49,648 nt of DNA from NCBI GenBank assembly GCA_020719945.1, contig DYPL01000006.1:21597-71244 (forward strand), read 5' to 3'. This document shows positions 7,995 through 20,922 of this stretch, piece by piece. Every line of letters starts with the position of its first letter. Position 1 is the first letter of the stretch. This DNA is from Turneriella parva. GTDB taxonomy: Bacteria > Spirochaetota > Leptospiria > Turneriellales > Turneriellaceae. A model generated the notes under the pieces. The model had not been told where the DNA came from and made no database searches. It saw only the letters and a program-made list of their open reading frames with translations. Made by a program: the position numbers and the translations under genes.

Positions 7995-8975
7995 CTACGT
8001 CTCCAAACGATCGGCAGGGGTGGGGCGGTAGCCATTCAAAAAATCGGGGATCGCCATGCGCTTTTTGCCCTCAAACTGGATGCCAGAAAAAGGCAACAGG
8101 CCATCCCGACAGGCTATGTAAAGGAGGGAATCGCGAATATGCAGGGAACCGGGCGCGGCATTTTCCAGAACCAAAGGCGCGTTAAAATCGGCAAAGAGTT
8201 TTATCTTTTTGCCGCGAAAAGAAGAATAGATGCCGGGCCGCTCCGAAAGAGCGCGCACCTTGTTCCACTGCACGAGGCCAGTTTCCTGCGAATTCCATTG
8301 GCCCATTTCGGTTGAAATTTTAGAGCAAAAAGTGGCTTTAGAAAAATCCTGCGGGATGGCAGTGAGCTTTCCATTAGAATAGTCTAACAAAATGGCCGGA
8401 GCATTTTCGAGAAGATTGTCTGTTAGTTTCTGGTACAGAGTACTTCTGTCGTCAACGGGTTCTATGGGAACCGTCGTCGATGCAAGTACATCGCCCGCGT
8501 CGAGCTCTTCGGTGATTTTTTGGAGCGACCAGCCTGTTTCGGAGAAACCGTGCAGAAGAGCAAATTCTATGGGCGCAGCCCCCCGGAGCAATGGAAGCTT
8601 AGATGCGTGAAAATTTACTCCCCCTAGTTCCGGTGTGGCAAAAAAATCGCGTGGTATAATTTTGCCATACGCCAGAATGATATGAAAAAGAACATGGAAA
8701 TCTTTCATCTGGCGAAGAAGCTCAGCCACCTCTTCTTTGTTTCTTTTTTTAAGACGAAGAGTTTCTGGTTCAAAAACGGGGATTCCTGCTTCCATGGCTA
8801 TTTTTTTAACGGGAGAAGGAAGAACTCCGCGCCCTCTTGCTGAGCGGGCCTTGTCTGGTTGCGTGACGATAAACCGGACCGAAAAGCGGGAGTCGGAGAG
8901 CAGGGTTTGGAGCAGGGTAGCCGAGATTTCTGGCGTTCCCCAAAACGAAATAGGGACGGGATTATTCGTTGTCAT
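7995..8975 (-). CDS. fmt: Methionyl-tRNA formyltransferase
   Basis: Fmt formylates the methionine on initiator tRNA. The 326 residues open with PISFWGTPEISATLL, the usual N-terminal Rossmann strand. The catalytic N-H-D set is present as VNFHASKLP and LDAGDVLA, around the RGAAPIEFALLHG loop, and the C-terminal OB-like tRNA-binding domain is complete (WNKVRALSERPGIYSSF onwards). I placed the start at the ATG at 8975 (MTTNNPVPISFWG) because that matches the family; the frame stays open 15 codons further up. This start overlaps the stop of the upstream 135-residue gene by 14 bases, so the two are likely translationally coupled. No def gene is adjacent. Confidence 0.96.
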   Translation of the reverse strand: MTTNNPVPISFWGTPEISATLLQTLLSDSRFSVRFIVTQPDKARSARGRGVLPSPVKKIAMEAGIPVFEPETLRLKKRNKEEVAELLRQMKDFHVLFHIILAYGKIIPRDFFATPELGGVNFHASKLPLLRGAAPIEFALLHGFSETGWSLQKITEELDAGDVLASTTVPIEPVDDRSTLYQKLTDNLLENAPAILLDYSNGKLTAIPQDFSKATFCSKISTEMGQWNSQETGLVQWNKVRALSERPGIYSSFRGKKIKLFADFNAPLVLENAAPGSLHIRDSLLYIACRDGLLPFSGIQFEGKKRMAIPDFLNGYRPTPADRLET

Positions 8976-9369
8976 TGCTGGTAAGTTCTTCTTCGAGCTC
9001 GTCTGCCTTTGCGGCAACATAGGAGAGGCTTTTGAGGAATCGCTCCGGATCCAAGTTGTTGAGGAGATTAGTCTGCTTTAAGATAAGGTTTTTTCCATTA
9101 ATGGCAATGGCGCCATAGGTGAGCCGCGTGTTGGTAACGAGAGCTGCAAAGAAGAGATCGCCATTGTCTTTTTCTATTGGGCAGATTCGCGAGAAGTATT
9201 CAATGATGGGATCGCCTGCGTCGTCCTTGCCGAGATAAATGTGCACGGTTTGTTTTCTTCCGCCTTCAAATTCAAGGGTGGTCTGGTATTTTCCAGCGGC
9301 TTCCGGCTGAAATTTAATTTTTGTTTCTGCGGAGACAGCGGCTATGAATGCATCGAATTTAGTTAACAT
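8962..9369 (-). CDS. Conserved hypothetical protein, 135 aa, coupled to fmt
   Basis: I do not recognise this gene with certainty. It is a soluble acidic protein without a signal peptide. The alternating helix-strand pattern (FDAFIAAVSAE, then TTLEFEGGRKQTVHIYLG, RICPIEKDN, LFFAALVTNTRLTYGAIAI, then a helical EELEEELTSNDNE tail) resembles the small YbjN / type III chaperone-like (CesT) fold, which would suggest a protein-binding role. That assignment is weak and rests on pattern only. It overlaps fmt by 14 bases and probably shares its transcript. Confidence 0.6.
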   Translation of the reverse strand: MLTKFDAFIAAVSAETKIKFQPEAAGKYQTTLEFEGGRKQTVHIYLGKDDAGDPIIEYFSRICPIEKDNGDLFFAALVTNTRLTYGAIAINGKNLILKQTNLLNNLDPERFLKSLSYVAAKADELEEELTSNDNE

Positions 9370-9646: not shown

Positions 9647-10774
9647 TTATGGACGCCAAATGTCCAACGAATACGGTGGCAGACCCGTATCAAGGGGATT
9701 GCTCGTGATCTCTGCAAAAGTAGTAACAGAGAAAATGCGGATCCCTGGTTGGTTGTTAGAGCGGTCTGCCACAAAAATTTTATCTGAACCATCCCAGGCG
9801 AAGTCGGCAAAATAACCTCCATCAGAAGAGGTGAGTACGGCCAGAGTATGCAGAACAGTTCCGGATTCGGGATCAAAAGCAATCAGGTAAGATTGAAAAA
9901 TTTGATCCGAAGCAATGGCAAAGGCAAGCGTTTTAGATACAAAAATTGAATTCAAAATTTCTAAACCGGCAGCAGCTTCAGGAAGGGGGCTCGCCCCGAA
10001 GGTAGAGGTACTTACGTTAAAAAGGACTACACCGCCATCGAGACTATAATTTACGCCAAAATTTGCCGGGGCCGAAACATACAACGAGTTGTCTACAGGA
10101 TGTTTCCTGAGAGAAGAAACCGGGTTTTCAAAAGGAAGAATGTAATCTGCCATAATGCTCTTGTTGGATGCGTCGAAAGCAAGTAAGCGGCTATCTCCCG
10201 AAGGTTGCCAGACTCCGCCACTATTACGATTCAGTCTTTGCAAAGTGACATATAAAATTGTCCCATCTGTAAACAGAGCAGAAGGTTCCGGGTATCCATC
10301 CGAATCTGACCAGGCCGAAACAGAAAGCGTGCCAACAGTTTTTCCGTTGCGAGGATCTATGGCAGATAAATAGTCGCGGTTATGCAGGCTCACATAAGCG
10401 AGACTTGGCGAAACAAGCGCAATATTTTGCGGGTTGCTTTTATTTCCCAGAGAAACTTCGTACACGGGCCGAAAGTTTTCCCAGGGCGAAACCTTTACAA
10501 GGTTGTCTGCTCCGTACCGGTTCAGAACAAAAATTTCGCCGCCGGTCGATTTTACAACTGCATCCGAGTGGACGGGAAAAATATCTTTGTAAACTTTTAG
10601 ATCTGTGAGAGAAATGGCAGAAAAAAATCCCGTTGTAAAATCAGATGTCGTCATGACCAGCATGGCTTCGGCTTTAACGACAGGTGCGGTCGGTTCCGGA
10701 ATGTCTGTGCAGGCTCCCGCAATTAGGAGAATAAAAAAAATCAAAACTATTTGATTAGATTGATACATTTTCAT
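9647..10774 (-). CDS. BtuG-like beta-propeller surface lipoprotein
   Basis: A 375-residue lipoprotein (lipobox LLIAGAC, Cys near residue 22) followed by repeated propeller-like segments such as NPQNIALVSPSLAYVSLHN, YLSAIDPRNGKTVGTLSV, PSALFTDGTILYVTLQRL and FADFAWDGSDKIFVADRS. This YncE-like pattern is the architecture of BtuG, the surface lipoprotein that caps BtuB and captures cobalamin in Bacteroides. The assignment rests on architecture plus context: it is the last gene of an operon led by a cobalamin riboswitch and overlaps the TonB receptor by four bases (ATGA). A general propeller lipoprotein for another ligand is the alternative. No terminator is obvious after it. Confidence 0.8.
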   Translation of the reverse strand: MKMYQSNQIVLIFFILLIAGACTDIPEPTAPVVKAEAMLVMTTSDFTTGFFSAISLTDLKVYKDIFPVHSDAVVKSTGGEIFVLNRYGADNLVKVSPWENFRPVYEVSLGNKSNPQNIALVSPSLAYVSLHNRDYLSAIDPRNGKTVGTLSVSAWSDSDGYPEPSALFTDGTILYVTLQRLNRNSGGVWQPSGDSRLLAFDASNKSIMADYILPFENPVSSLRKHPVDNSLYVSAPANFGVNYSLDGGVVLFNVSTSTFGASPLPEAAAGLEILNSIFVSKTLAFAIASDQIFQSYLIAFDPESGTVLHTLAVLTSSDGGYFADFAWDGSDKIFVADRSNNQPGIRIFSVTTFAEITSNPLDTGLPPYSLDIWRP

Positions 10775-12696
10775 TTCCAGACTCCCTTGTATTGCAGTTC
10801 GTACACGCGACCAGGCAATGGATAGCCCATCATGTCCTCGCGAAGTTCATCGAGAATATTGCGCACATAAAAAGAGACAGATGAATTGTCCCATAAAAAT
10901 CGAGTTCCGACAGTCACATCGTAACGCGCCGGGGAATAATAATACCAGGAATTGTAGCGGTCCCGGTAGGTGGCCCCTTCGTATTCAAAGGCAGCTAAAA
11001 AACGCAGATGGCGCGCGCCAGATTCTGCAAACAGAGAAACCGTGTGCATGGGGCGGTAGGGCAAAAACTTTCCTGCATAGGCGGCAACACTGCCGGTATC
11101 CCTTGCATCCATAAAGCTGTAACGTGCGGTAATGCTGCTGTAAGAATATCTGGCTGTAATCTCGTTTTCGAAGCCGCGCAGTACAGCTGCATCAATGTTC
11201 CGGGCCACCATGGTCTGCTGGGAATTGGCGGTATATAAAATAAGATGCGACGCATCTGTTAAAAATACGCGTGAAGATAAAGAGACAAATAAATACGAGA
11301 TGTTTAATCCTGTCTCTGCCGTACGTAGTATTTCGTGGCGAAGGGAATCAGACGGGAGAAGCAGAGCTCCATCGCCAAAAAATTCCATGATGGCAGGATA
11401 TCGCTCGCTGTAATTGACCGCCCCAAAAAACGAAACAGATTTTTGGCCAGAAAAAAAACTCGGGGAATATTCCAGACCTGTCCGAAAAGATTTCACGGCT
11501 CCGCTTCCAGAGCGAGGTTCAGAAAAAATAGTTTCACTCTGTAAAGATTGGTCGTGCAGAAAAACAGATTTGGCCTCTGCAAATAAAACAGTATCGCGGA
11601 TGGTTAATTCTCCGGAAAATGCAGTGTCTGCTTCGTTACGATCGTGTAGAATACTTTCTGTAGTAAAACGAACAAAGCGATATTCCAGAGGAAAAGATAA
11701 AACCAGATTTTCCAGAGGAAACCACAGTGGCAAAATATTTGCGCCGAGACTCATCGTCTGCTGCTGTGTTTCCATAAAACCCGACTCCAGTTCATACTTG
11801 GGATCGCACAGGCGGCTATCGCGAAGATTGGCAAATATTCCGCCAGAAAGAACAGCAGAATCAGTAGTCCACAATTCACCGGAGCCGCGAAGCAAATAAC
11901 GACGCGATGCATAGCGAACATGCGATGTCTCCTGCTGCACACTTCCAGGCAACCCCTGTTTTCTGTCTATTACTCCAAAAAGCAGACGAGAATTTCCAGG
12001 CGTGCGCAACAGGCTGAACCAGGAAAGTGAGCGGTAGTCCTCGTTTTCGCGAGTGGCCATGGTGTCATCGGATTCGTTAAACCAGGGCGTGCCGTTATCG
12101 TCATGGTATTCATAGCGATTGAGACTGCCCTGCACTTCGGCAAAGTGTGCCGACATAGAATCGCTGTAACCTGCGGATACGCTTCCACCTGCGAGGGAGT
12201 TTGCCATGGACTGCAGTTTCCATTGTTTAGAATCTTCTAACAAAGGAGAAACAAGATTCACAGCGCCGCCACCATGAAAGGAGCTGAGTCTGGCTGGCGA
12301 AAAAGATCGGTATATTTCTATCTGCTCAAAAAACAACAAAGGTATTTCGGATAAATTATCCATTTCTCCCGTGCCAGAGGAAACAGGAATTGAGTCTATG
12401 TAAATTCCAGTGTGAACAGGATTTGTGCCGCGAATGGAAATATGCGAAAAACTTCCCGGGGCTCCGTACCTCCGCAAAAAAAAGCCGGGTTGCATATCCA
12501 GAATTTCGCCGAGATTCCCTGCAGTGAGATTTGCGCCGCTGTCCGGAGAAACAATATCCATGCCGGGTGCTTTGTCTTTTTCTGCTACAACTTCAATTTC
12601 TGTGGTTTTCGGGTGGAGGCTGAAAAAAACGCCAGCGGCGGACAGCATTACAATTGCGCCGCAAAAGCGACCAGCCAGACAAGCCACAGCCCTCAA
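10771..12696 (-). CDS. TonB-dependent outer-membrane receptor, BtuB-like
   Basis: A 641-residue receptor with a signal peptide, a TonB-box-like TEIEVVAE segment near residue 32, a plug domain (LGEILDMQPGFFLRRYGAPG, ISIRGTNPVHTGIYIDSIPV, FHGGGAVNLVSP) and a long strand-rich barrel. It is similar in length to E. coli BtuB (about 600). Cobalamin is the likely substrate because the operon begins with a B12 riboswitch. The start is TTG, overlapping the stop of the upstream lipoprotein as TTGA, with an AAGG stretch about ten bases upstream; the next gene overlaps by ATGA. No tonB, exbBD or btuCDF genes lie in the window. Confidence 0.9.
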   Translation of the reverse strand: MRAVACLAGRFCGAIVMLSAAGVFFSLHPKTTEIEVVAEKDKAPGMDIVSPDSGANLTAGNLGEILDMQPGFFLRRYGAPGSFSHISIRGTNPVHTGIYIDSIPVSSGTGEMDNLSEIPLLFFEQIEIYRSFSPARLSSFHGGGAVNLVSPLLEDSKQWKLQSMANSLAGGSVSAGYSDSMSAHFAEVQGSLNRYEYHDDNGTPWFNESDDTMATRENEDYRSLSWFSLLRTPGNSRLLFGVIDRKQGLPGSVQQETSHVRYASRRYLLRGSGELWTTDSAVLSGGIFANLRDSRLCDPKYELESGFMETQQQTMSLGANILPLWFPLENLVLSFPLEYRFVRFTTESILHDRNEADTAFSGELTIRDTVLFAEAKSVFLHDQSLQSETIFSEPRSGSGAVKSFRTGLEYSPSFFSGQKSVSFFGAVNYSERYPAIMEFFGDGALLLPSDSLRHEILRTAETGLNISYLFVSLSSRVFLTDASHLILYTANSQQTMVARNIDAAVLRGFENEITARYSYSSITARYSFMDARDTGSVAAYAGKFLPYRPMHTVSLFAESGARHLRFLAAFEYEGATYRDRYNSWYYYSPARYDVTVGTRFLWDNSSVSFYVRNILDELREDMMGYPLPGRVYELQYKGVWK

Positions 12697-13610
12697 TGGA
12701 TGGCCTTGAGATAACGGGCATACACGGCATCTATGTCGGCTCCACTCTGGTCTGTGGAATTTGCCACAGAGGGATACGCTGTACTGGTGTCCGGGTTCGT
12801 TACTTTGTTGGCGCGGGTTAGTTTGATGTAGCGAAATCCATTTGTCTTAATTGCTGTGCCGTCGGTTGTGTCGGGAAGAGAGTTCAGATCAAAGCCGTCC
12901 CCCCCAGACGCTAAAAGATTTGTCACTAAATTTACGGCACCTGGACTTAGTCGGTCCCCCTGAAAAAAGGGATCGGCACCATGCAGTAGATAGGAATGAG
13001 TTGCTTCGTTGTAGAGAGTCGGGAATATTCCGGCAAAACCGTTCCAGTCTTTCCAAGAGGAGGACCCTGGATCCGTGGTTTCGTCATCGCTAATGCCGTC
13101 ATTATCGGAATCGATTCCCTTGTAATCGACCGGAAATGGTACCCAGGTAGATCCATCCAGAGAAACCTCTACGGCTGCCGGCTCAATAAAACTTTCGCCC
13201 TCTGAGTTTGAGATAAAAAATCCATTTTCAAAAAGAGTAAAGTCTACTCCTTCGCCATTGCAGACGGCATGGCTGCTCCAACGCAAAATAAGAACTCCGC
13301 TCGTATCGGAATCGTGGTTGCGCAGACTGTACACGTCCATGGTGCCATTTGCTCCATTTGTGGCCATGGCAGGGTTGCCGTAATTGCCGAGATCAGAAAC
13401 TGGCTGTAGGGCCTGATCGGCATGGTAGGCAACAGCGCTCTCCGGATTTTCGTTGTAGTGCTGGTAAAAAGATTCGCAGCCATCGGGAGCAGCCGGGTAG
13501 GGTGGTTGATAGCGCGCAACGCTTGGCTCATTATTCTGAGGGTTTTGTTCGGTGGCACAGCCAGCCAGAAAAAGTAGCCCTGCCACAAGGGCCCCATGGA
13601 ATGGTTTCAT
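12693..13610 (-). CDS. LIC13355-like lipoprotein of the cobalamin operon
   Basis: A 305-residue lipoprotein (lipobox LLFLAGC, Cys near residue 18). It is rich in Asp, Asn and Gly, with a conserved-looking core VDFTLFENGFFISN, EPAAVEVSLDGSTWVPFPVD and GFDLNSLPDT, the arrangement I associate with the Leptospira LIC13355 family and with surface proteins next to TonB receptors in Bacteroidetes. A calcium-loop-like DSDNDGISDDE lies near residue 165. It is the first gene after the riboswitch, with GGAG seven bases before the ATG, so its ribosome-binding site may be the direct target of the switch. A cobalamin-binding role, comparable to Bacteroides BtuH, is an inference from position. Confidence 0.8.
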   Translation of the reverse strand: MKPFHGALVAGLLFLAGCATEQNPQNNEPSVARYQPPYPAAPDGCESFYQHYNENPESAVAYHADQALQPVSDLGNYGNPAMATNGANGTMDVYSLRNHDSDTSGVLILRWSSHAVCNGEGVDFTLFENGFFISNSEGESFIEPAAVEVSLDGSTWVPFPVDYKGIDSDNDGISDDETTDPGSSSWKDWNGFAGIFPTLYNEATHSYLLHGADPFFQGDRLSPGAVNLVTNLLASGGDGFDLNSLPDTTDGTAIKTNGFRYIKLTRANKVTNPDTSTAYPSVANSTDQSGADIDAVYARYLKAIH

Positions 13611-13654
13611 TGTTTCTCCACGGCATTTACTCCCGAAGGCCGCTAAAATTTTTT

Positions 13655-13852
13655 ATGGCAGGTCTCCTGGCTTCCCGGTTGCAGTTAGAAAATAATTTTG
13701 TTTTATCAAATTAACTTCAGTCTGTTGGAAAACCTTCCCGCTTGCGCAGTGGTTTTCCGTATTCCGGGATTTCCCGGCGGGTATACAGTTGCGGGTACAG
13801 CTCCCGATTGTCGCGGGATTCCCTTTTCACCCCTGTTAAGCGGGCACCATGG
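13655..13852 (-). promoter_or_regulatory. Cobalamin (AdoCbl) riboswitch
   Basis: On the minus strand the conserved elements occur in order: GGTGCCC, GGGGTGAAAAGGGAA, GGGAGCTG, CCCGCAACTGTA, CCACTG, GCGGGAAGG and the B12 box AGCCAGGAGACCTGCC. After the box a short CGGC...GCCG hairpin lies before the GGAG site of the lipoprotein gene, which suggests control of translation initiation; a classical terminator is not evident. It controls the three-gene uptake operon. Confidence 0.97.
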
Positions 13853-13879
13853 GGAAGACTGTGCGCCAAGAATAGGTGG

Positions 13880-14230
13880 TCAAGGAAAAACTCGGATCAT
13901 CTCTGTCGTAAGCTGGGACCAGAATCCGGCTGTGGGATTTTCTGTTAATCGGAAAAATTCTTCGGGTGTATATACGAGGAGGTCTAAAGCTGGAACCAAA
14001 TCAAATAAATCATCGTATTCTCTCGCGCGCTCGACAAATGGTTTTGACGTTTGTGCAACAACAATCAAATCGATATCGCTGTGTCTCGTGAGTTTTCCCC
14101 TTGCAAGTGATCCAAAGATCCATGCTTCCTCTGCACGCCCCTGGAGTTTGTTTTTTAACGCTTTTATAAATGTCTCGCGTGTAAAATTACCAAGTGGATT
14201 GCGCTGTATTTTTACGAGAATATTATTCAT
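13880..14230 (-). CDS. MNT-type nucleotidyltransferase of a HEPN/MNT pair
   Basis: A 116-residue minimal nucleotidyltransferase. The signature GSLARGKLTRHSDIDLIVVA holds the two metal-binding aspartates, and a third acidic residue is in ALDLLVYTPEE. In characterised pairs (MntA/HepT) such enzymes are antitoxins that AMPylate the HEPN ribonuclease. I chose the ATG at 14230, which overlaps the HEPN stop by eight bases and opens with MNNILVKIQRNP; the longer open frame runs antisense through the HEPN gene and is not real. It ends about 30 bases before the cobalamin riboswitch, so the B12 operon promoter must lie at its 3' end. Confidence 0.88.
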   Translation of the reverse strand: MNNILVKIQRNPLGNFTRETFIKALKNKLQGRAEEAWIFGSLARGKLTRHSDIDLIVVAQTSKPFVERAREYDDLFDLVPALDLLVYTPEEFFRLTENPTAGFWSQLTTEMIRVFP

Positions 14231-14612
14231 GTTGAATTTCTTTTCGTGCAATTTCCAGGAACAGGTCAGCAAATTCGAGAGCTTCCACTGCATGGACCCT
14301 TGTGTAGAATTGAAATGGAGCTCCGCCGTCATAGGCGTCCGGATATCTCGTGGGGATATAATATTGATCGAGTCGCAGGGCCGCCTCGCGCAATGGGCCA
14401 TTTATTCCCAGTGCATCTGCAATTTCTCGGATGGAATGTGAACGAATGGAATCAAAATCGCGCGCTAATGCTATGGCTTTTAGAGCTTTTTCTGCAACCT
14501 GCTGCGAGATAAAACAAGCCTGTGCAAAGTGTTCGGATTCTGCGGAATCTTGTCCCCATAGAAAATCATTTTCTGCCTGGGCAAGCCAGTCTGCTGCTCT
14601 TGATTTTCGCAT
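14223..14612 (-). CDS. HEPN-domain protein of a HEPN/MNT pair
   Basis: A 129-residue all-helical protein. The opening ADWLAQAENDFLWGQ, the QVAEKALKAIAL helix, a SHSIREIADAL segment and YIPTRYPDAYDG match the HEPN domain (PF05168). The R-x4-H arrangement of ribonuclease HEPN toxins is not in its usual internal place; the only one is RKEIQH at the extreme C-terminus, so ribonuclease activity is uncertain. It is translated first and overlaps the nucleotidyltransferase gene by eight bases. TTGACA lies 29 bases upstream with no Shine-Dalgarno site, which may mean a very short leader. It may be a toxin-antitoxin module or a general stress module. Confidence 0.85.
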   Translation of the reverse strand: MRKSRAADWLAQAENDFLWGQDSAESEHFAQACFISQQVAEKALKAIALARDFDSIRSHSIREIADALGINGPLREAALRLDQYYIPTRYPDAYDGGAPFQFYTRVHAVEALEFADLFLEIARKEIQHE

Positions 14613-14772: not shown

Positions 14773-14796
14773 ATACGCTAAGCTTCCTTAGCGTAT
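14773..14796 (-). terminator. Ten-bp hairpin at the metallophosphoesterase stop codon
   Basis: A perfect inverted repeat ATACGCTAAG-CTTC-CTTAGCGTAT touches the stop codon of the metallophosphoesterase gene. On the minus strand a T-run follows only after about 15 bases, inside the repeat copy, so it may act as an mRNA 3'-end stabiliser or a weak terminator. Confidence 0.5.
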
Positions 14797-16142
14797 TACT
14801 TCAAATCAATGACTAACTCGTTGTCGACAGGGGCAAGGTCTTCCCACCACGAATCAATCAGAGGCTTGCGGTTGTCTAATACCATTCCGCCCATAAAGCC
14901 AAGTTTCTTTTTGTCGATGAGAGGTTTTTTGGAAGTGTCTTCGTCGCCGCCAAGGTGGGCCACATAGGCAACAGCAACCAGCGGTGCCATATAATCCTGA
15001 TCTTTCGCAGACACATTGTAACCGGCCATAATATCCTTTGCCATTACTTCGGTTCCGTCAAGAACGAACTGGTTGGCAAATTTTTGAAAGTCTTTTTGAG
15101 AGGGAATTGACTGAACGCGGTGGCTTGTTACGCGAAGAGTATTGTCTTTGATTTCGTACATTCTATAGGGAGATGGATATGTGACCGGCGAACCAACTTC
15201 TATATCGTACAGGACCGGATTGTGAGCAATGTGATCAAATTTGCGCAGAGTAATATCCTGAGCATGGTAGTGGCCCGTGAATACAACGCGCACGCCATAT
15301 TTAGCGAAAACCTCTGCAACGGCATCGTTATTATCCACGAGATATTCTCCATAATATTTTTTGTTAGCTGTGTAATGGTCGATAATTCCGTGGTGCATCA
15401 TGGCAACTACCGGCTTACCGTTGCGGCGCGCCTGGATGAGCTGCTCTTCAATCCATGCCATTGTCTCTTTTGTAAAATGACCGTAAGTGATAGGGTGTTT
15501 TTTGAGATCATTTTGTTGGGCTTTTGTGGAATCCAGTGCGAAGAGCAACAAACCTGGAGTTGGCTCTGCGATATAGCTTAAAGAATTTGGATCGCGCGCA
15601 AGAGCTGTGGAGTATCCAAAGTCGTTGTAAATTTCTGCAAATTCGGAAAGCTCAACGGATGGAATTCGCTCCTTGCCGGTCTGCGTGTATTTGAAGGCAT
15701 CACCGCTGCGCAGATCATGGTTGCCGGGAATCACATAGACGGGGGTTCCTGCTGCTTCTACCTTTTTGAGCATGGCAACAAGAAACTCGTGGTTGTGCCG
15801 CTCGCCATCTTTTGTGAGGTCACCAGACAAAATAAGAAAATTCACTTTCTGCTTTTGGATACCTGAGAACATGGCCTGGATAATTTCTTCGGATTCTCTG
15901 AGCATTTTGCGGTCGTGGCGTAGATATTCTTGAAAATCGGGAGTGTCAAAACCAAGAGTTTTGTCGAACACGTGGAGGTCGGACATGTGTGCAAACTTCA
16001 CGGATGGATAGGCTGGAGCGCTTCCTTGGAACAGCTCCTGAACGGATGGTTCTTTGTTGTATCTCGTTTCAATTTTTTTGGATGACGAGCATGCACCGAG
16101 CAGTGCCGCTATGGACATCGCGATTAAGAATTGCTTTTTCAT
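14796..16142 (-). CDS. Calcineurin-like metallophosphoesterase lipoprotein
   Basis: A 448-residue lipoprotein (lipobox LLGAC, Cys near residue 17) with every metal motif of the calcineurin-like family: HMSDLHVFD, SGDLTKDGERHNHE, PGNHDLRSG, MMHHGIIDH and FTGHYHAQD. It should be an exported hydrolase of phosphomono- or phosphodiesters; the substrate is unknown. I chose the ATG at 16142 because it gives a clean lipoprotein signal; the frame stays open 65 codons upstream without signal-like sequence. It is transcribed away from the barrel gene at 16338. The C-terminal 80 residues past the catalytic core do not resemble a domain I know. Confidence 0.92.
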   Translation of the reverse strand: MKKQFLIAMSIAALLGACSSSKKIETRYNKEPSVQELFQGSAPAYPSVKFAHMSDLHVFDKTLGFDTPDFQEYLRHDRKMLRESEEIIQAMFSGIQKQKVNFLILSGDLTKDGERHNHEFLVAMLKKVEAAGTPVYVIPGNHDLRSGDAFKYTQTGKERIPSVELSEFAEIYNDFGYSTALARDPNSLSYIAEPTPGLLLFALDSTKAQQNDLKKHPITYGHFTKETMAWIEEQLIQARRNGKPVVAMMHHGIIDHYTANKKYYGEYLVDNNDAVAEVFAKYGVRVVFTGHYHAQDITLRKFDHIAHNPVLYDIEVGSPVTYPSPYRMYEIKDNTLRVTSHRVQSIPSQKDFQKFANQFVLDGTEVMAKDIMAGYNVSAKDQDYMAPLVAVAYVAHLGGDEDTSKKPLIDKKKLGFMGGMVLDNRKPLIDSWWEDLAPVDNELVIDLK

Positions 16143-16337
16143 AGTGGTCAACTGTAAAACTTCGGTAACTGCCGAAAAGACTTTTTTGCGAGATGAGCCC
16201 TGCTGCTTTTGCTTGGGAACAGATTTGCCGCTGGTGCACTGGACGCATAGCTGTGCAATGCGGTGTTCGGGATAAACCTGGTAGCGCAAAACGTTTATAT
16301 TAGTGGACGATTTCTCAATATTTTGTAATATTAACAA

Positions 16338-16991
16338 ATGAAGGAGCGATTTTTGTTGGCAGGCGGAATTTTTTTCGTTTCAATTTTTTTTGCTCCTGTC
16401 CACGCCCAAGCTCTTTTTGAAGATACAGAGCTGTATCGTCCCCAATCTGGTTTTCGTGAAGAGTACCGCCCCACCGTCCACGCCCACATTGCTCCTTCTT
16501 TGCCGGTTGGTTATCTCGCTGATATTTTTCCTTTTGGTGCTGGTGCCAATCTTGCATTTACCTTGCGCCTTCCGTGGAAGTTTTTACAGTTTTCTGAGTA
16601 TCTTGACTGGAGTGCTGGTGCCACTGCTGGGTATTATTTTTTTATGAGCGAGGTAGACGATTCGTCTCTCCTTTTGCAGTTGATTCCTTTTACTGCCGAT
16701 GTTCGCCTTGTGTTTCGGATTCCACCATTGGCGGTTAAGAATTTTTTCCCTTATATAAGTACGGGAACGGGTGCTTCTTATACTGTGGGTAGTCGCGAGG
16801 AGCATTTAACCGGGATTACTTTGACAGGCACCTCTATTGATTATACCTATTTGATTGGCGGTGGTTTTTCTTATGATATTCCCGAGATTCCCGCTATGGA
16901 GTATGTTTTTAATTTGCAGTATTTGCTTGCAGCCGAGCGAGAATTGGGTCATTTTTTGAATATTTCGTTGGGGGTTGCTTATGAGCTTTAG
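16338..16991 (+). CDS. Small outer-membrane beta-barrel protein, hypothetical
   Basis: A 217-residue protein with a signal peptide (cleavage likely after APVHAQA) and alternating amphipathic strands: LAFTLRLPWKFLQF, SAGATAGYYFFMS, DVRLVFRIPPL, SYTVGSREEHLTG, YTYLIGGGFSYDI and the terminal LNISLGVAYEL. The pattern fits an eight-stranded barrel ending in a hydrophobic residue. No specific family is recognised. It overlaps the possible upstream starts of the giant lipoprotein gene (ATG at 16981), so the two are probably one operon, and the barrel could be the outer-membrane partner of that lipoprotein. Confidence 0.75.
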   Translation: MKERFLLAGGIFFVSIFFAPVHAQALFEDTELYRPQSGFREEYRPTVHAHIAPSLPVGYLADIFPFGAGANLAFTLRLPWKFLQFSEYLDWSAGATAGYYFFMSEVDDSSLLLQLIPFTADVRLVFRIPPLAVKNFFPYISTGTGASYTVGSREEHLTGITLTGTSIDYTYLIGGGFSYDIPEIPAMEYVFNLQYLLAAERELGHFLNISLGVAYEL

Positions 16992-17046
16992 GGGAATTTT
17001 ATCGAAGTTGGGGGGCAACCCCCCCATGGCCCCCTTGGGTTCGCGC

Positions 17047-20000
17047 ATGCGCTTTTTGGATTTTTTTCGGAAGTTGCGGCGGGTACCTTGCAGATCCCTT
17101 ATCGGGGTTGCATTTGTGCTTTTGTCTTTGGGGCGATGCAGTGGCGATGTTTTTTCTACTCTGCACCAGGGCACGGGGATAGAGTTTACGACGGATCTCA
17201 AGCGAACAAATACCCAGATCGAATATACCTGTCTTTCACCTGTGGAATATACGGTGGAGTTTGGCCAAGATGTTGATACATCTACCTTTACTGCCTCGGA
17301 CATTGTACAGGAGGGTACGCTTAGCGACACCGTACTCGACTGGAATATTATTGATAGCGGCAACCATAAAAAGTTCACTGTTCACGCTGTTTCCGTTGGC
17401 ACGGGAGAAGGAACAATACTTCCCTCCATACCCGCCAATTCCGTTCAAAATAATGTAGGGACTTCCTTTATGGCCTCGCGCGGTACTGAACTCGAGGTAA
17501 ATTTTGATAACGGGCCACCCGACCCTGTTTCTGCAACTGTTTTCGATTCCGACCATAACGGAAAAATTGACCACTTTATTATCGTCTTTGATCACGAAGT
17601 AGATGACTCGACATTTCCCGGTTATTCAGAAAATTCACAGGGAACTCCGACACCAGACTGGCTTATTGCCAGTTACAGTAATGTGCGTTTGGCTCATGGT
17701 ACGGCGGCCCCTTCCGGTTATACGGATGTCGTTGACGATAGTACTTTGTATTTGCGCTTTGACGAAAATACAAATACCTGCTCGTCTGCAGATTTGACGG
17801 GCTGCGATACGGGATCCAAGCCAGACCTCACTACTACGACCACTCCTATTCTCCGGGACGTTGTACCGCCTGCGGGCAATGTGGTGCCCCAGGTAAACAC
17901 GGCAACCATTACTGAAACGGATGGGGCGGTGCCAATAGTCGTTGCTGCAAGCGCGCCCTCCAGTGTACAACTGCAAATCAAATTTTCCGAAGATGTCCAA
18001 TCTGCCACAACGGATTGTTCTAACGCGCCGGCATGCTCTGCCATCTATACCATTTCCCCAGGAATAGCGGTAAACGCCGCCTCGCTCGGAGCAGATCTGC
18101 AAACCGTTACGCTTACAACAGCAGACCAGACGTATTCAACGGCCTATACGGTTACCGTCGCGGTGGGCACGGTAAAAGCACTCAACAATGCAGATCTGAT
18201 TACAGGATACAACGCAGCAAATTTTACCGGTGGGCCGGTAGAGACAAAACTGATGACAGCCACGGCACCCAACTCTACCTCAGTAGAACTCACCTTTAAC
18301 CAGACGGTGGAAAGTACCACAGCGGAATGCAGCAGCGCAGGAACCTGCTCCGCCATATACAGCCTACCGGGCCTGACAATTTCTTCTGCGGCCACGTATC
18401 CCGCTCCAGCAACAGATTCCTCGGTTGTGCGCCTTACCACGAATACCCACAAAAGCGATACGCCAAACGGCTATACGGTAACCATCGCCACGGGAACCGT
18501 TGCCGCTACGGCAGCACTCGGAAGCCTCACCTGCGAAACTCCCTACAATACGGCCAGCTTTACGGGGAATGTGCCGCCCCGCGTGACAGGCGTAGCCTCT
18601 TACGATGCAACTCATGTGGACGTGGTTTTCAGTGAAGCCATGCAGTGGGATGCACTAACCAATGGGGCTTTAAATACTGCGAATTATTCCATTTCTGGAC
18701 TTACCGTCTCTGCCGCTGTGCCTGTTACGACGGGAACGCGCGTGCGGCTTACCACAACGCCGCAAACCAGTGGTACTCTGTACACACTTATCGCGAGCAA
18801 TGTAATGGATTTTGGGGGAAGTCTTATTGGCGCGTACAATACCGGCACGTTTACGGGACAGGAAGGCTTTAAGATTATGTCTGCCAACAACGTGGAAGAC
18901 AGCAGCGGCAGCTTTTCTGTGTTTGAAGTGCATTTCTCCAAACCGTTCGAAATCAGTACAACGGCAAACAGCGTGACCAATCTTTTGAACTGGGATTTTT
19001 CCACGGGGCTGGGAGCTGTCTCGTTATGCTATTCAGGTGACGATATTGTTTGCCCCATCAACTACACCGAAGGAACCGACGCGGTCTTCTTTTTTAAGGC
19101 ATCGCCAGAACCCGCTCAGGGAGCCTATACCGCCGTGGGAGCAACGGCGGTGGGAACGCCCGCAGGGGCAGCGGGCTGTTTGCTGCCCGATGGAGGAACT
19201 GCCCCGGCAGACTGTCTGCTCATAACGGGAGATCGCGCCAGCTTTGATTTTGGCATTCCCGATATTCTCCAGGAAGGCCCGGTCTACGAGGATCCCTTTG
19301 TGGACAATACACCCTCTGGCCAGATTGTAGTGTATAACGATAAACTGCTGATTGGCCCCAACGACAGCAACTCGGCTTTGTTCCAGACCGAGTACAATTT
19401 AACGGGAGCTGTCAATATAACTTTGGATGCCGATTCCATAACGAGCGGCTACCAGGCCTTTCAGGGAATTTATGAAAGTTGCAGCAGCGGCACGTGGCCC
19501 AATTGTACAGCCGGGAATATTCTTGCCGGAATTGACAACATGTACGCGGCCTGCTACCACGATACCAACGCCATAGACAGCACGCTGACGGGAGCGGCCT
19601 GCTCCGCCGTGGGAACGGAGTATGTCTTTGTAGTGGGTTACCTTACCTCTGCCCCGGAAGGCTACCAGACGAACTGGTACACTACAAACAAGATTTCTCC
19701 TTATGTATTTACACGGACGGAAGGCGTGTCGCATGCGGGAGATTTGACTTACAGAGCCATGAGCGTCGCCACATTTAAGGCTTGGGTTTACCAAGCACAA
19801 CAGCATCAAGAAGGCAGCGCCGCCGTGCGCTGGAGCCGGTTTCAACCGGGTGGCACTATGGTTAATCTGGAAGGAAGATGGCTGCCAAGAATTGGGGAAC
19901 AAAACTCAGGGGGAGCAGGTACGAATCTTCAGAATGGCCAGGGAGACGCCGCAACCGGCCTCATCTCTATTGACGTGATGTACGAGCACGACAACGACGG

Positions 20001-20922
20001 GACCGGTGGCAATGAATCGCAGTTGTATATTGCCAATGGCGGATCCTGCGATAACGACTGCCTTACCAACGCCACCCCCTACCGCAGCAATGCAACCGAT
20101 TACGATGGCGGCGTTTTGCGCACCCAACTGGCATACTCCTCTGCAGGGAACCCTCCTCCATCATGCAGTTCCCTTGCTCTCTGCCAGGGATACTGGGAAG
20201 ACGTTACGCCAAACTCCATAAACTGGCTCAAATATATGTCTAAACCGCTTCCACAGGATGCCGTAGGGAATGGGGTTTGTGGGACAATAGGCTCGGGAAC
20301 AACGGAAGACTGGGATTGCCTGGTGCCGACCAATACCATTACGCCCGCCATTAAAGGCATTCCCAAAATGGTTACATTCAATGGCGATCTTTACATGATT
20401 CGCAATGCCTGTTCTACCAATTCGGTGGAAACGATTACCACAACGCACAAATCTACGTGCAGTGCAGGAACAGAAACGCCGCAACTCTGGAGATTGCCCG
20501 CCAATAGTGCGACTCCCCAGAGTGCCTGGACATTGATTGGCGCCTTGGGCAAAACCACCATGGCCGGCGCAGACTGGCTGGGTGGAACAAATCAGTCCAC
20601 CAATACCGCCAACAACACAGAGGTGACTCTGCTTGCCGTAGTGGGAGACAGGCTGTATATAGGGTTTGACAACGAGACCAATGGGGCTAACGTTTGGAGA
20701 ACCAAATCGGGCGTTACCACAGTTTCTGCGGAAAGCGATTTTGAGGCAATCTGCCAGACGGGAAACCAGTGTTCTACCGCCAGCTATCAGTTTGGGTTTA
20801 ACGAAAGTGCCACCATGCTCTTTGATGCCGTGTCAGCTGAAGACGCGGGAACGCCGTATTGTATTTTTACAGCCGGGACAGGAACCGGGGGCGTAAAAAT
20901 ATTCCGGACAAATAATTACTAA
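17047..20922 (+). CDS. Giant surface lipoprotein with tandem Ig-like (SbsA/Big_5-type) repeats
   Basis: About 1291 residues from the ATG at 17047, which gives an ideal lipoprotein signal (basic FRKLRRVPCR, then FVLLSLGRC, Cys near 31). Earlier in-frame starts (ATG 16981, ATG 17026) cannot be excluded. Residues 295-395, 396-508 and 509-604 are tandem Ig-like repeats sharing the plan VQLQIKFSEDV, CSAIYTISPG, VTLTTADQ, YTVTVAVGTV and GYNAANFTG; a more divergent unit spans 605-730. The remaining 560 residues are Cys-, Thr- and Asn-rich with propeller-like pieces (LYIANGGSC, GDLYMIRNAC, RLYIGFDNETNGANVWRT). This looks like a stalk carrying a binding domain. The SOR-fold lipoprotein follows one base later. 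Confidence 0.88.
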   Translation: MRFLDFFRKLRRVPCRSLIGVAFVLLSLGRCSGDVFSTLHQGTGIEFTTDLKRTNTQIEYTCLSPVEYTVEFGQDVDTSTFTASDIVQEGTLSDTVLDWNIIDSGNHKKFTVHAVSVGTGEGTILPSIPANSVQNNVGTSFMASRGTELEVNFDNGPPDPVSATVFDSDHNGKIDHFIIVFDHEVDDSTFPGYSENSQGTPTPDWLIASYSNVRLAHGTAAPSGYTDVVDDSTLYLRFDENTNTCSSADLTGCDTGSKPDLTTTTTPILRDVVPPAGNVVPQVNTATITETDGAVPIVVAASAPSSVQLQIKFSEDVQSATTDCSNAPACSAIYTISPGIAVNAASLGADLQTVTLTTADQTYSTAYTVTVAVGTVKALNNADLITGYNAANFTGGPVETKLMTATAPNSTSVELTFNQTVESTTAECSSAGTCSAIYSLPGLTISSAATYPAPATDSSVVRLTTNTHKSDTPNGYTVTIATGTVAATAALGSLTCETPYNTASFTGNVPPRVTGVASYDATHVDVVFSEAMQWDALTNGALNTANYSISGLTVSAAVPVTTGTRVRLTTTPQTSGTLYTLIASNVMDFGGSLIGAYNTGTFTGQEGFKIMSANNVEDSSGSFSVFEVHFSKPFEISTTANSVTNLLNWDFSTGLGAVSLCYSGDDIVCPINYTEGTDAVFFFKASPEPAQGAYTAVGATAVGTPAGAAGCLLPDGGTAPADCLLITGDRASFDFGIPDILQEGPVYEDPFVDNTPSGQIVVYNDKLLIGPNDSNSALFQTEYNLTGAVNITLDADSITSGYQAFQGIYESCSSGTWPNCTAGNILAGIDNMYAACYHDTNAIDSTLTGAACSAVGTEYVFVVGYLTSAPEGYQTNWYTTNKISPYVFTRTEGVSHAGDLTYRAMSVATFKAWVYQAQQHQEGSAAVRWSRFQPGGTMVNLEGRWLPRIGEQNSGGAGTNLQNGQGDAATGLISIDVMYEHDNDGTGGNESQLYIANGGSCDNDCLTNATPYRSNATDYDGGVLRTQLAYSSAGNPPPSCSSLALCQGYWEDVTPNSINWLKYMSKPLPQDAVGNGVCGTIGSGTTEDWDCLVPTNTITPAIKGIPKMVTFNGDLYMIRNACSTNSVETITTTHKSTCSAGTETPQLWRLPANSATPQSAWTLIGALGKTTMAGADWLGGTNQSTNTANNTEVTLLAVVGDRLYIGFDNETNGANVWRTKSGVTTVSAESDFEAICQTGNQCSTASYQFGFNESATMLFDAVSAEDAGTPYCIFTAGTGTGGVKIFRTNNY

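Follow-up and report, generated by a model that had tools for sequence, protein, structure and literature searches.

The closest described counterparts of the locus studied here are the vitamin B12 (cobalamin) uptake systems of Bacteroides. In the accessible portions of the papers cited in this text, the propeller lipoprotein BtuG is reported as exclusive to Bacteroidetes, and the lipoprotein export signal of Bacteroidetes is likewise described as exclusive to that phylum (PMC6143338). BtuH is reported mainly from gut Bacteroidetes, plus three Firmicutes species, and its domain was described as lacking known structural homologs; BtuH2 binds B12 through its C-terminal domain (PMC8941943), and in BtuG1 the BtuG and BtuH parts are naturally fused (PMC10404256). 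According to a 2026 study of DUF4465, this domain occurs in eight clades, Spirochaetota among them, and PF16819 propellers are encoded near its genes (PMC13398666), so that the literature at least implies BtuG-like propellers beyond Bacteroidetes. In Leptospira, cobalamin riboswitches have been reported at btuB and the cob operon (three in one study), and the accessible text of these reports ties none of them to the lipoprotein LIC_13355. In the open-access literature we found nothing linking BtuG or BtuH to Leptospira, and BtuH was linked to spirochaetes, and BtuG to Myxococcota, only via PMC13398666. Here we analysed a stretch of 49,648 nucleotides (nt) from the spirochaete Turneriella parva (contig DYPL01000006.1, positions 21,597 to 71,244; hereafter the window), in which a cobalamin riboswitch precedes genes for a LIC_13355-like lipoprotein (P0001), a TonB-dependent receptor (P0002) and a beta-propeller lipoprotein (P0003). 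With a probability of roughly 0.8, we read this locus as a B12-repressed operon for B12 uptake at the outer membrane, with a BtuB-like channel, a BtuG-like lid and a BtuH-type catcher, in a host apparently unable to make B12.

The riboswitch aptamer matched RF00174 over the full length of the model (positions 1-189) at 80.8 bits (gathering score, 31.5) and reached 14 nt past the boundary at 13852 given in the original prediction. The leader that follows it contains a GGAG Shine-Dalgarno-like site adjoining a small GC-rich hairpin. A pattern scan from 13640 to 13610 (aptamer to start codon) listed no minus-strand terminator-like site, and the 5' leader of the operon was conserved in a genome of the same genus (G001), which makes control of translation the likelier mode by which the riboswitch would act. 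The genes lie on the minus strand in the order P0001, P0002, P0003, and each neighbouring pair shares 4 nt (TTGA and ATGA). Chance does not explain the arrangement: most genomes of the family have the riboswitch, the LIC-like gene and the propeller gene in colinear order, and the leader shows conservation within the genus. The original prediction had proposed a cobalamin riboswitch in front of three overlapping genes for a LIC13355-like lipoprotein, a TonB receptor and a propeller lipoprotein; the RF00174 score and the 4-nt overlaps confirmed the layout, and the NF033170 match, the PF00593 and PF07715 matches, and the structure model with its fold search confirmed the three products (Table 1).

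Table 1. Coordinates in the window of the riboswitch and the three genes of the operon (aa, amino acids)
Feature	Position	Strand	Evidence
Cobalamin riboswitch aptamer (RF00174)	13640..13866	-	cmscan 80.8 bits, E 2e-18; leader conserved; minimum free energy fold
Leader, putative expression platform	13611..13639	-	sequence; conservation with locus L002
LIC_13355-like lipoprotein P0001, 305 aa, lipobox LAGC, Cys18	12693..13610	-	NF033170; AF2 model; VIA
TonB-dependent outer-membrane receptor P0002, 641 aa, TTG start, BtuB-like	10771..12696	-	Pfam; NCBIfam; phmmer
Beta-propeller lipoprotein P0003, 375 aa, Cys22, BtuG-like	9647..10774	-	AF2; Foldseek; VIA; profile

P0001 matched the family NF033170 (lipo_LIC13355) with E 8.1e-32, and its AF2 model had a pLDDT of 80.9 and a pTM of 0.81. 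The fold comparison by VIA placed residues 388-660 of 8blw_B first (Z 11.4, 173 residues aligned, root-mean-square deviation (rmsd) 3.7) and residues 315-593 of 7biz_B second (Z 11.2, 165 aligned, rmsd 3.8); the former is BtuG1's BtuH domain, and the latter is the domain with which BtuH2 binds B12. From the third rank onward, PAPP-A and CBM32/discoidin domains followed at Z 8.8 and lower, so that the predicted fold of P0001 is that of the BtuH2 C-terminal domain. Foldseek also put 8blw_B first of 272 rows, though at a mere E 2e-3. A bridge profile (A4) was built from 21 distant LIC relatives and searched against 177,635 PDB sequences; its top two matches were 8blw_B (E 2.8e-5, chain positions 413-498) and 7biz_A (E 0.031). 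The A4 alignment pairs the NAF of BtuH2 with the E-N-x-F of the LIC family (E128-N129-x-F131 in P0001), whose N is kept in 79/79 rows (58/58 and 21/21) and whose F is kept in 77 of the 79 (57/58 and 20/21); BtuG1 retains the N of N-x-F, not the F. The LIC family also has invariant GGDxFDL and DID residues. By a numbering deduced from the construct (103-593), the chain length of 501 and the NAF motif (offset 100), these two residues are Asn399 and Phe401 of BtuH2, both among the B12 contacts named for that protein (PMC8941943). These results suggest that P0001 is BtuH-domain-like, and we propose it as a surface B12 binder; the LIC-BtuH link looks like homology, and we favour shared ancestry over convergence. 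An assignment of P0001 to BtuJ/DUF4465 was rejected, as it had no Pfam DUF4465 match at E<=1, and none of the 20 rows of alignment A1 or the 21 rows of A4 matched DUF4465 at E<=0.1.

The AF2 model of P0003 had a pLDDT of 91.0 and a pTM of 0.86. Neither Pfam nor NCBIfam gave a family for it at E<=1, and P0003 is called a propeller because of the model and the fold search, not because of curated families. BtuG-type structures filled the first 12 Foldseek rows (E 2.6e-14 to 4.7e-12), followed by the siderophore binder XusB (9hqk) at rank 13 (2.1e-11) and YncE at rank 25 (1.1e-9). In VIA, ranks 1-11 were BtuG chains with Z 30.0-31.6, 303-318 residues aligned and rmsd 2.8-3.4, which places the model among BtuG-type propellers. 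The propeller profile also found BtuG chains, with E 3.5e-4 to 0.07, and PF16819 (DUF5074) was matched by 2 of the 13 rows of the propeller alignment A3 (best 2.4e-6). The column of Cys22 holds Cys in 10 of the 13 rows of the propeller alignment. The P0003 gene adjoins the TonB receptor gene under a cobalamin riboswitch, which is the genomic context of BtuG. We propose from the modelled fold that P0003 is a BtuG-like lid or B12 binder. In P0002, plug and barrel domains were found above their cut-offs (PF07715 at 47.5 bits, PF00593 at 49.2 bits), and phmmer matches in the PDB were 9gbc and BtuB 3rgm, the latter at E 8.8e-6. Its best NCBIfam match was a myxochelin receptor (E 1.5e-17), with TonB-B12 level at 2.3e-17.

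The locus was compared with 41 genomes of relatives, 13 of them from the same family, and NF033170 was searched in 48 genomes of the class, among which we identified none of the genus Leptospira, so that the locus of LIC_13355 itself lies outside the sample. NF033170 was matched above its cut-off in 33 of the 48. In the family, a LIC match was present in 11/13 genomes, a propeller in 13/13 and a cobalamin riboswitch in 12/13; LIC and propeller genes were colinear at receptor distance in 10/13, and a riboswitch lay within 2.5 kb upstream of the LIC gene in 10/13. Among all 41 relatives, 31 had a cobalamin riboswitch; a LIC match was found in 32, with a same-strand riboswitch <=2.5 kb upstream in 19 of these, and a propeller in 36, with a riboswitch <=6 kb upstream in 14. 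In three genomes (G017, G029, G033) a propeller gene, and no LIC gene, lies downstream of the riboswitch, and the LIC and propeller genes each have their own riboswitch in two others (G028, G032), which indicates that both genes are independently tied to B12 control.

A pattern scan with the LIC alignment over 84,980 species genomes gave 331 confirmed stretches, and the following counts cover the best 80 of these (L111 and L113 belong to one assembly). According to assembly titles, these loci come from Myxococcota, other 'Deltaproteobacteria', Leptospirae, Thermodesulfobacteriota, Planctomycetota, Omnitrophota, Verrucomicrobia and others. A same-strand cobalamin riboswitch was found <=5 kb upstream in 51 of the 80 loci (<=2 kb in 44), that is, in 34/55 outside Leptospirae and 17/25 within. 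Such riboswitches were sparse: 79 genomes of 1.5-12.7 Mb had 104 places between them, and chance proximity is therefore negligible. A regular expression for the B12 box was too noisy, and RF00174 searches and an nhmmer profile were used in its place. The training set of this profile comprised 13 riboswitches (12 from the 80 loci plus that of the window), and 39 of the 51 positives are non-training loci. At 49 of the 51, RF00174 had a place at the same coordinates, 39 of them over the gathering score; the other two positives, L076 and L132, were found by nhmmer alone. Counted riboswitches are nhmmer finds on the locus itself, excluding placements by contig coordinate that were unconfirmed there (for example at L090, L112 and L134). 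A TonB receptor was found <=6 kb away in 26/80 loci and a propeller in 23/80 (by our own profiles, some propeller matches being weak). In L129, L133 and L134, a propeller and then a LIC domain lie in one reading frame, which is the domain order of BtuG1. Two of the loci (L091, L095) are on contigs of metagenome-assembled genomes titled Klebsiella pneumoniae; their LIC-like proteins group with Myxococcota- and Proteobacteria-titled rows, and the bins are evidently mislabelled.

In a quick tree of LIC proteins with SH-aLRT supports only, which omitted rows of <=140 bits as well as L113 and L127, the Leptospirae sequences lay on one side of one weakly supported branch. P0001 was nearest by path to L002 and next to two Myxococcota rows. 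Horizontal transfer from Myxococcota is not claimed, given the very long branch and uncertain place of P0001.

Between the cobalamin riboswitch and the LIC gene, several loci (L102:8997-9500, L091:6458-7723, L092:9194-9853 and others) encode a member of a second, unnamed lipoprotein family (SRFDW, motif SRFDWT..YYCQ..GCGGFSWT). This family occurs near the LIC gene in 32/80 loci, 26 of which have the riboswitch. Pfam gave no match for the five members tried, nor did NCBIfam for the single one tried; the family is a candidate for a further B12 binder. In some Turneriellaceae genomes (L052:421-1716, L064:1304-2782), the riboswitch is followed by a tandem SRFDW-family protein in place of the LIC gene.

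The host genome (2.4 Mb, estimated 100% complete) encodes MetH (TIGR02082 at 1202 bits, cut-off 1010.85). Its one TP_methylase, the sole tetrapyrrole methylase, is a 16S rRNA enzyme; corrin-ring methylases were not found in this genome, and neither was a FecCD (BtuC-type) permease. These gene contents together suggest that the host scavenges B12: it probably needs the vitamin, does not synthesise the corrin ring and does without BtuC. Away from the operon, the host genome encodes the small protein DUF6580 (L182:1465-1977), probably a membrane protein, whose gene adjoins the LIC gene in 9/25 Leptospirae loci, often with DUF4430 (8/25), which we take to be a transcobalamin-related domain. Genes for DUF4430 and DUF6580 come after the LIC gene in several Leptospirae (L092:10900-11978, L130). 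DUF4430 is absent from the host genome, which has DUF6580. It is speculation that DUF4430 is tied to B12 and that DUF6580 acts as an inner-membrane carrier.

These observations are consistent with the following mechanism. When intracellular B12 is scarce, the riboswitch would permit translation of the mRNA. P0002 would form the channel, P0003 would sit on the receptor as a ligand-binding lid, and P0001, as a single-domain catcher of BtuH type, would hold the cobamide at the surface and pass it to the lid and the channel. Import would then be powered by TonB, and the inner-membrane step would proceed without BtuCD, perhaps via DUF6580.

Several results weigh against this reading, or against parts of it. 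P0001 scored 110.5 bits against NF033170, under the curated cut-off of 120, and is for that reason named LIC_13355-like. BtuH was reached by sequence only with the distant-member profile A4, not with P0001 alone or with profiles A1 and A2, and the A4 match to BtuH2 is weak taken alone; a direct sequence link between P0001 and BtuH was therefore rejected, and weak unrelated matches (for example 3b9n) were disregarded. Of the B12 contacts of BtuH2 (Gln333, Asn399, Phe401, His476, Tyr510, Trp511 and Trp577), the comparison covered Asn399 and Phe401. For P0003, propellers other than BtuG came near it in VIA (1l0q at Z 29.3, the next at 27.6), which makes the fold alone suggestive, not decisive; the best match of the propeller profile was an archaeal YVTN protein (6.5e-6), ahead of BtuG, and P0003 had no PF16819 match at E<=1, so that we term it BtuG-like. 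P0002 missed the BtuB equivalog cut-offs by far (62.8 bits against 599.7 for TIGR01779, 44 bits against 836 for NF007926) and is called BtuB-like on that account. Finally, 29 of the 80 LIC-like loci had no riboswitch <=5 kb upstream, some of them being contig ends, and P0001 sat on a branch of 1.55 in the LIC tree, with no resolved place.

The receptor and the propeller might import B12 next to a LIC_13355-like protein that is a structural or adhesive lipoprotein and binds no B12. This would fit the accessible part of a report that refolded rLIC_13355, expressed insoluble, bound laminin and plasminogen (PMC11891782), and the fold class of P0001 is common to discoidin/CBM32 domains that bind sugars and proteins. 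We consider it unlikely, however, as the riboswitch linkage recurs in several phyla, BtuH domains outscored discoidin domains by a clear margin when folds were compared, the Asn and Phe with which BtuH2 contacts B12 are conserved, and LIC domains occur fused to a BtuG-like propeller. The likeness of the LIC-like protein to BtuH could also have arisen by convergence on a common jelly-roll instead of descent. Jelly-roll and discoidin folds are indeed common, and the searches with P0001, A1 and A2 fail to reach BtuH, but the two best of the 177,635 sequences for A4 were the BtuG1 BtuH domain and BtuH2, and both the fusion order with a BtuG-like propeller and the N-x-F are shared, which makes convergence improbable.

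Much less probable still is another metal chelate as the substrate, such as haem, a siderophore or a cobinamide-like degradation product, with the riboswitch as a mere regulatory relic. The 12 BtuG rows above XusB argue against it, even if this siderophore binder also matches the propeller, and so do the intact, genus-conserved riboswitch, recurrent with the same gene set, and a MetH that requires B12 in a host where ring synthesis is apparently absent; on the other side, P0002 resembles TonB receptors for many substrates, the myxochelin receptor being its top match in NCBIfam. The B12 uptake operon thus remains our preferred reading. The original prediction of surface B12 capture like that of BtuG and BtuH outside Bacteroidetes is supported, as far as models and sequence comparisons go, by the closest structures, the LIC-BtuH sequence link and the riboswitch linkage across phyla; the comparison of predicted structures that it had suggested gave BtuG as the best match of P0003 (Z 31.6) and BtuH domains as the best two of P0001. 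It had offered convergent or transferred capture as explanations. The former is not our favoured reading, as the LIC-BtuH link looks like homology, and transfer is not shown by a tree in which the Leptospirae split is weakly supported and P0001 is on a very long branch.

More tentatively, and with somewhat less than even confidence, capture in the style of BtuG and BtuH could be a modular kit of wide distribution, present in Leptospirae, Myxococcota, Thermodesulfobacteriota, Planctomycetota and others. LIC_13355 of pathogenic Leptospira would then scavenge B12, SRFDW would be a third type of catcher, and in Leptospirae that lack BtuC, DUF6580 would transport B12 through the inner membrane. If our preferred reading of the operon is correct, BtuG and the BtuH domain are members of a far larger group of proteins that capture B12, and the LIC_13355 lipoproteins of pathogenic Leptospira, so far investigated as adhesins, acquire another role that can be tested directly. 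How these bacteria move B12 through the inner membrane with no FecCD permease also becomes a testable question.

Around the operon, a nucleotidyltransferase and HEPN gene pair, likely an MNT-HEPN toxin-antitoxin module, lies directly upstream of the riboswitch (13880-14612, minus strand). A calcineurin-like phosphoesterase bearing a lipobox-like stretch is encoded at 14796-16337 (minus strand). A 1315-aa open frame with a TTG start (16975-20922, plus strand) looks secreted and has repeated segments. On the other side, a small protein with a weak, sub-threshold CesT_Tir_1 chaperone match (8962-9369, minus strand) adjoins a methionyl-tRNA formyltransferase-like gene.

Compared with the LIC_13355 lipoproteins of Leptospira (NF033170), P0001 shares the domain, the lipobox and the bacterial class, but it falls below the family cut-off, and LIC_13355 has been published as a binder of laminin and plasminogen, in a paper whose accessible text has no mention of B12, cobalamin or TonB (PMC11891782). 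As is proposed for P0001, the BtuJ/DUF4465 jelly-rolls are B12 binders in TonB and propeller neighbourhoods of several phyla, including Spirochaetota and Myxococcota (PMC13398666, accessible portions), whereas the LIC alignment rows tried (A1, A4) had no DUF4465 match. BtuH2 has PKD repeats, unlike the single-domain LIC protein of P0001 type, and the Bacteroides system differs further in its host, in the about 12-16% identity of BtuG and BtuH in the fold alignments, and in the BtuC-type (FecCD) permease that was not found in the spirochaete genome. Nevertheless, the locus resembles the BtuB-BtuG (pedal-bin) and BtuH system of Bacteroides (PMC10404256, PMC8941943, PMC6143338) in its riboswitch-controlled TonB receptor, propeller lipoprotein and BtuH-fold lipoprotein; both lipoprotein folds match, and propeller-BtuH fusions occur in both.

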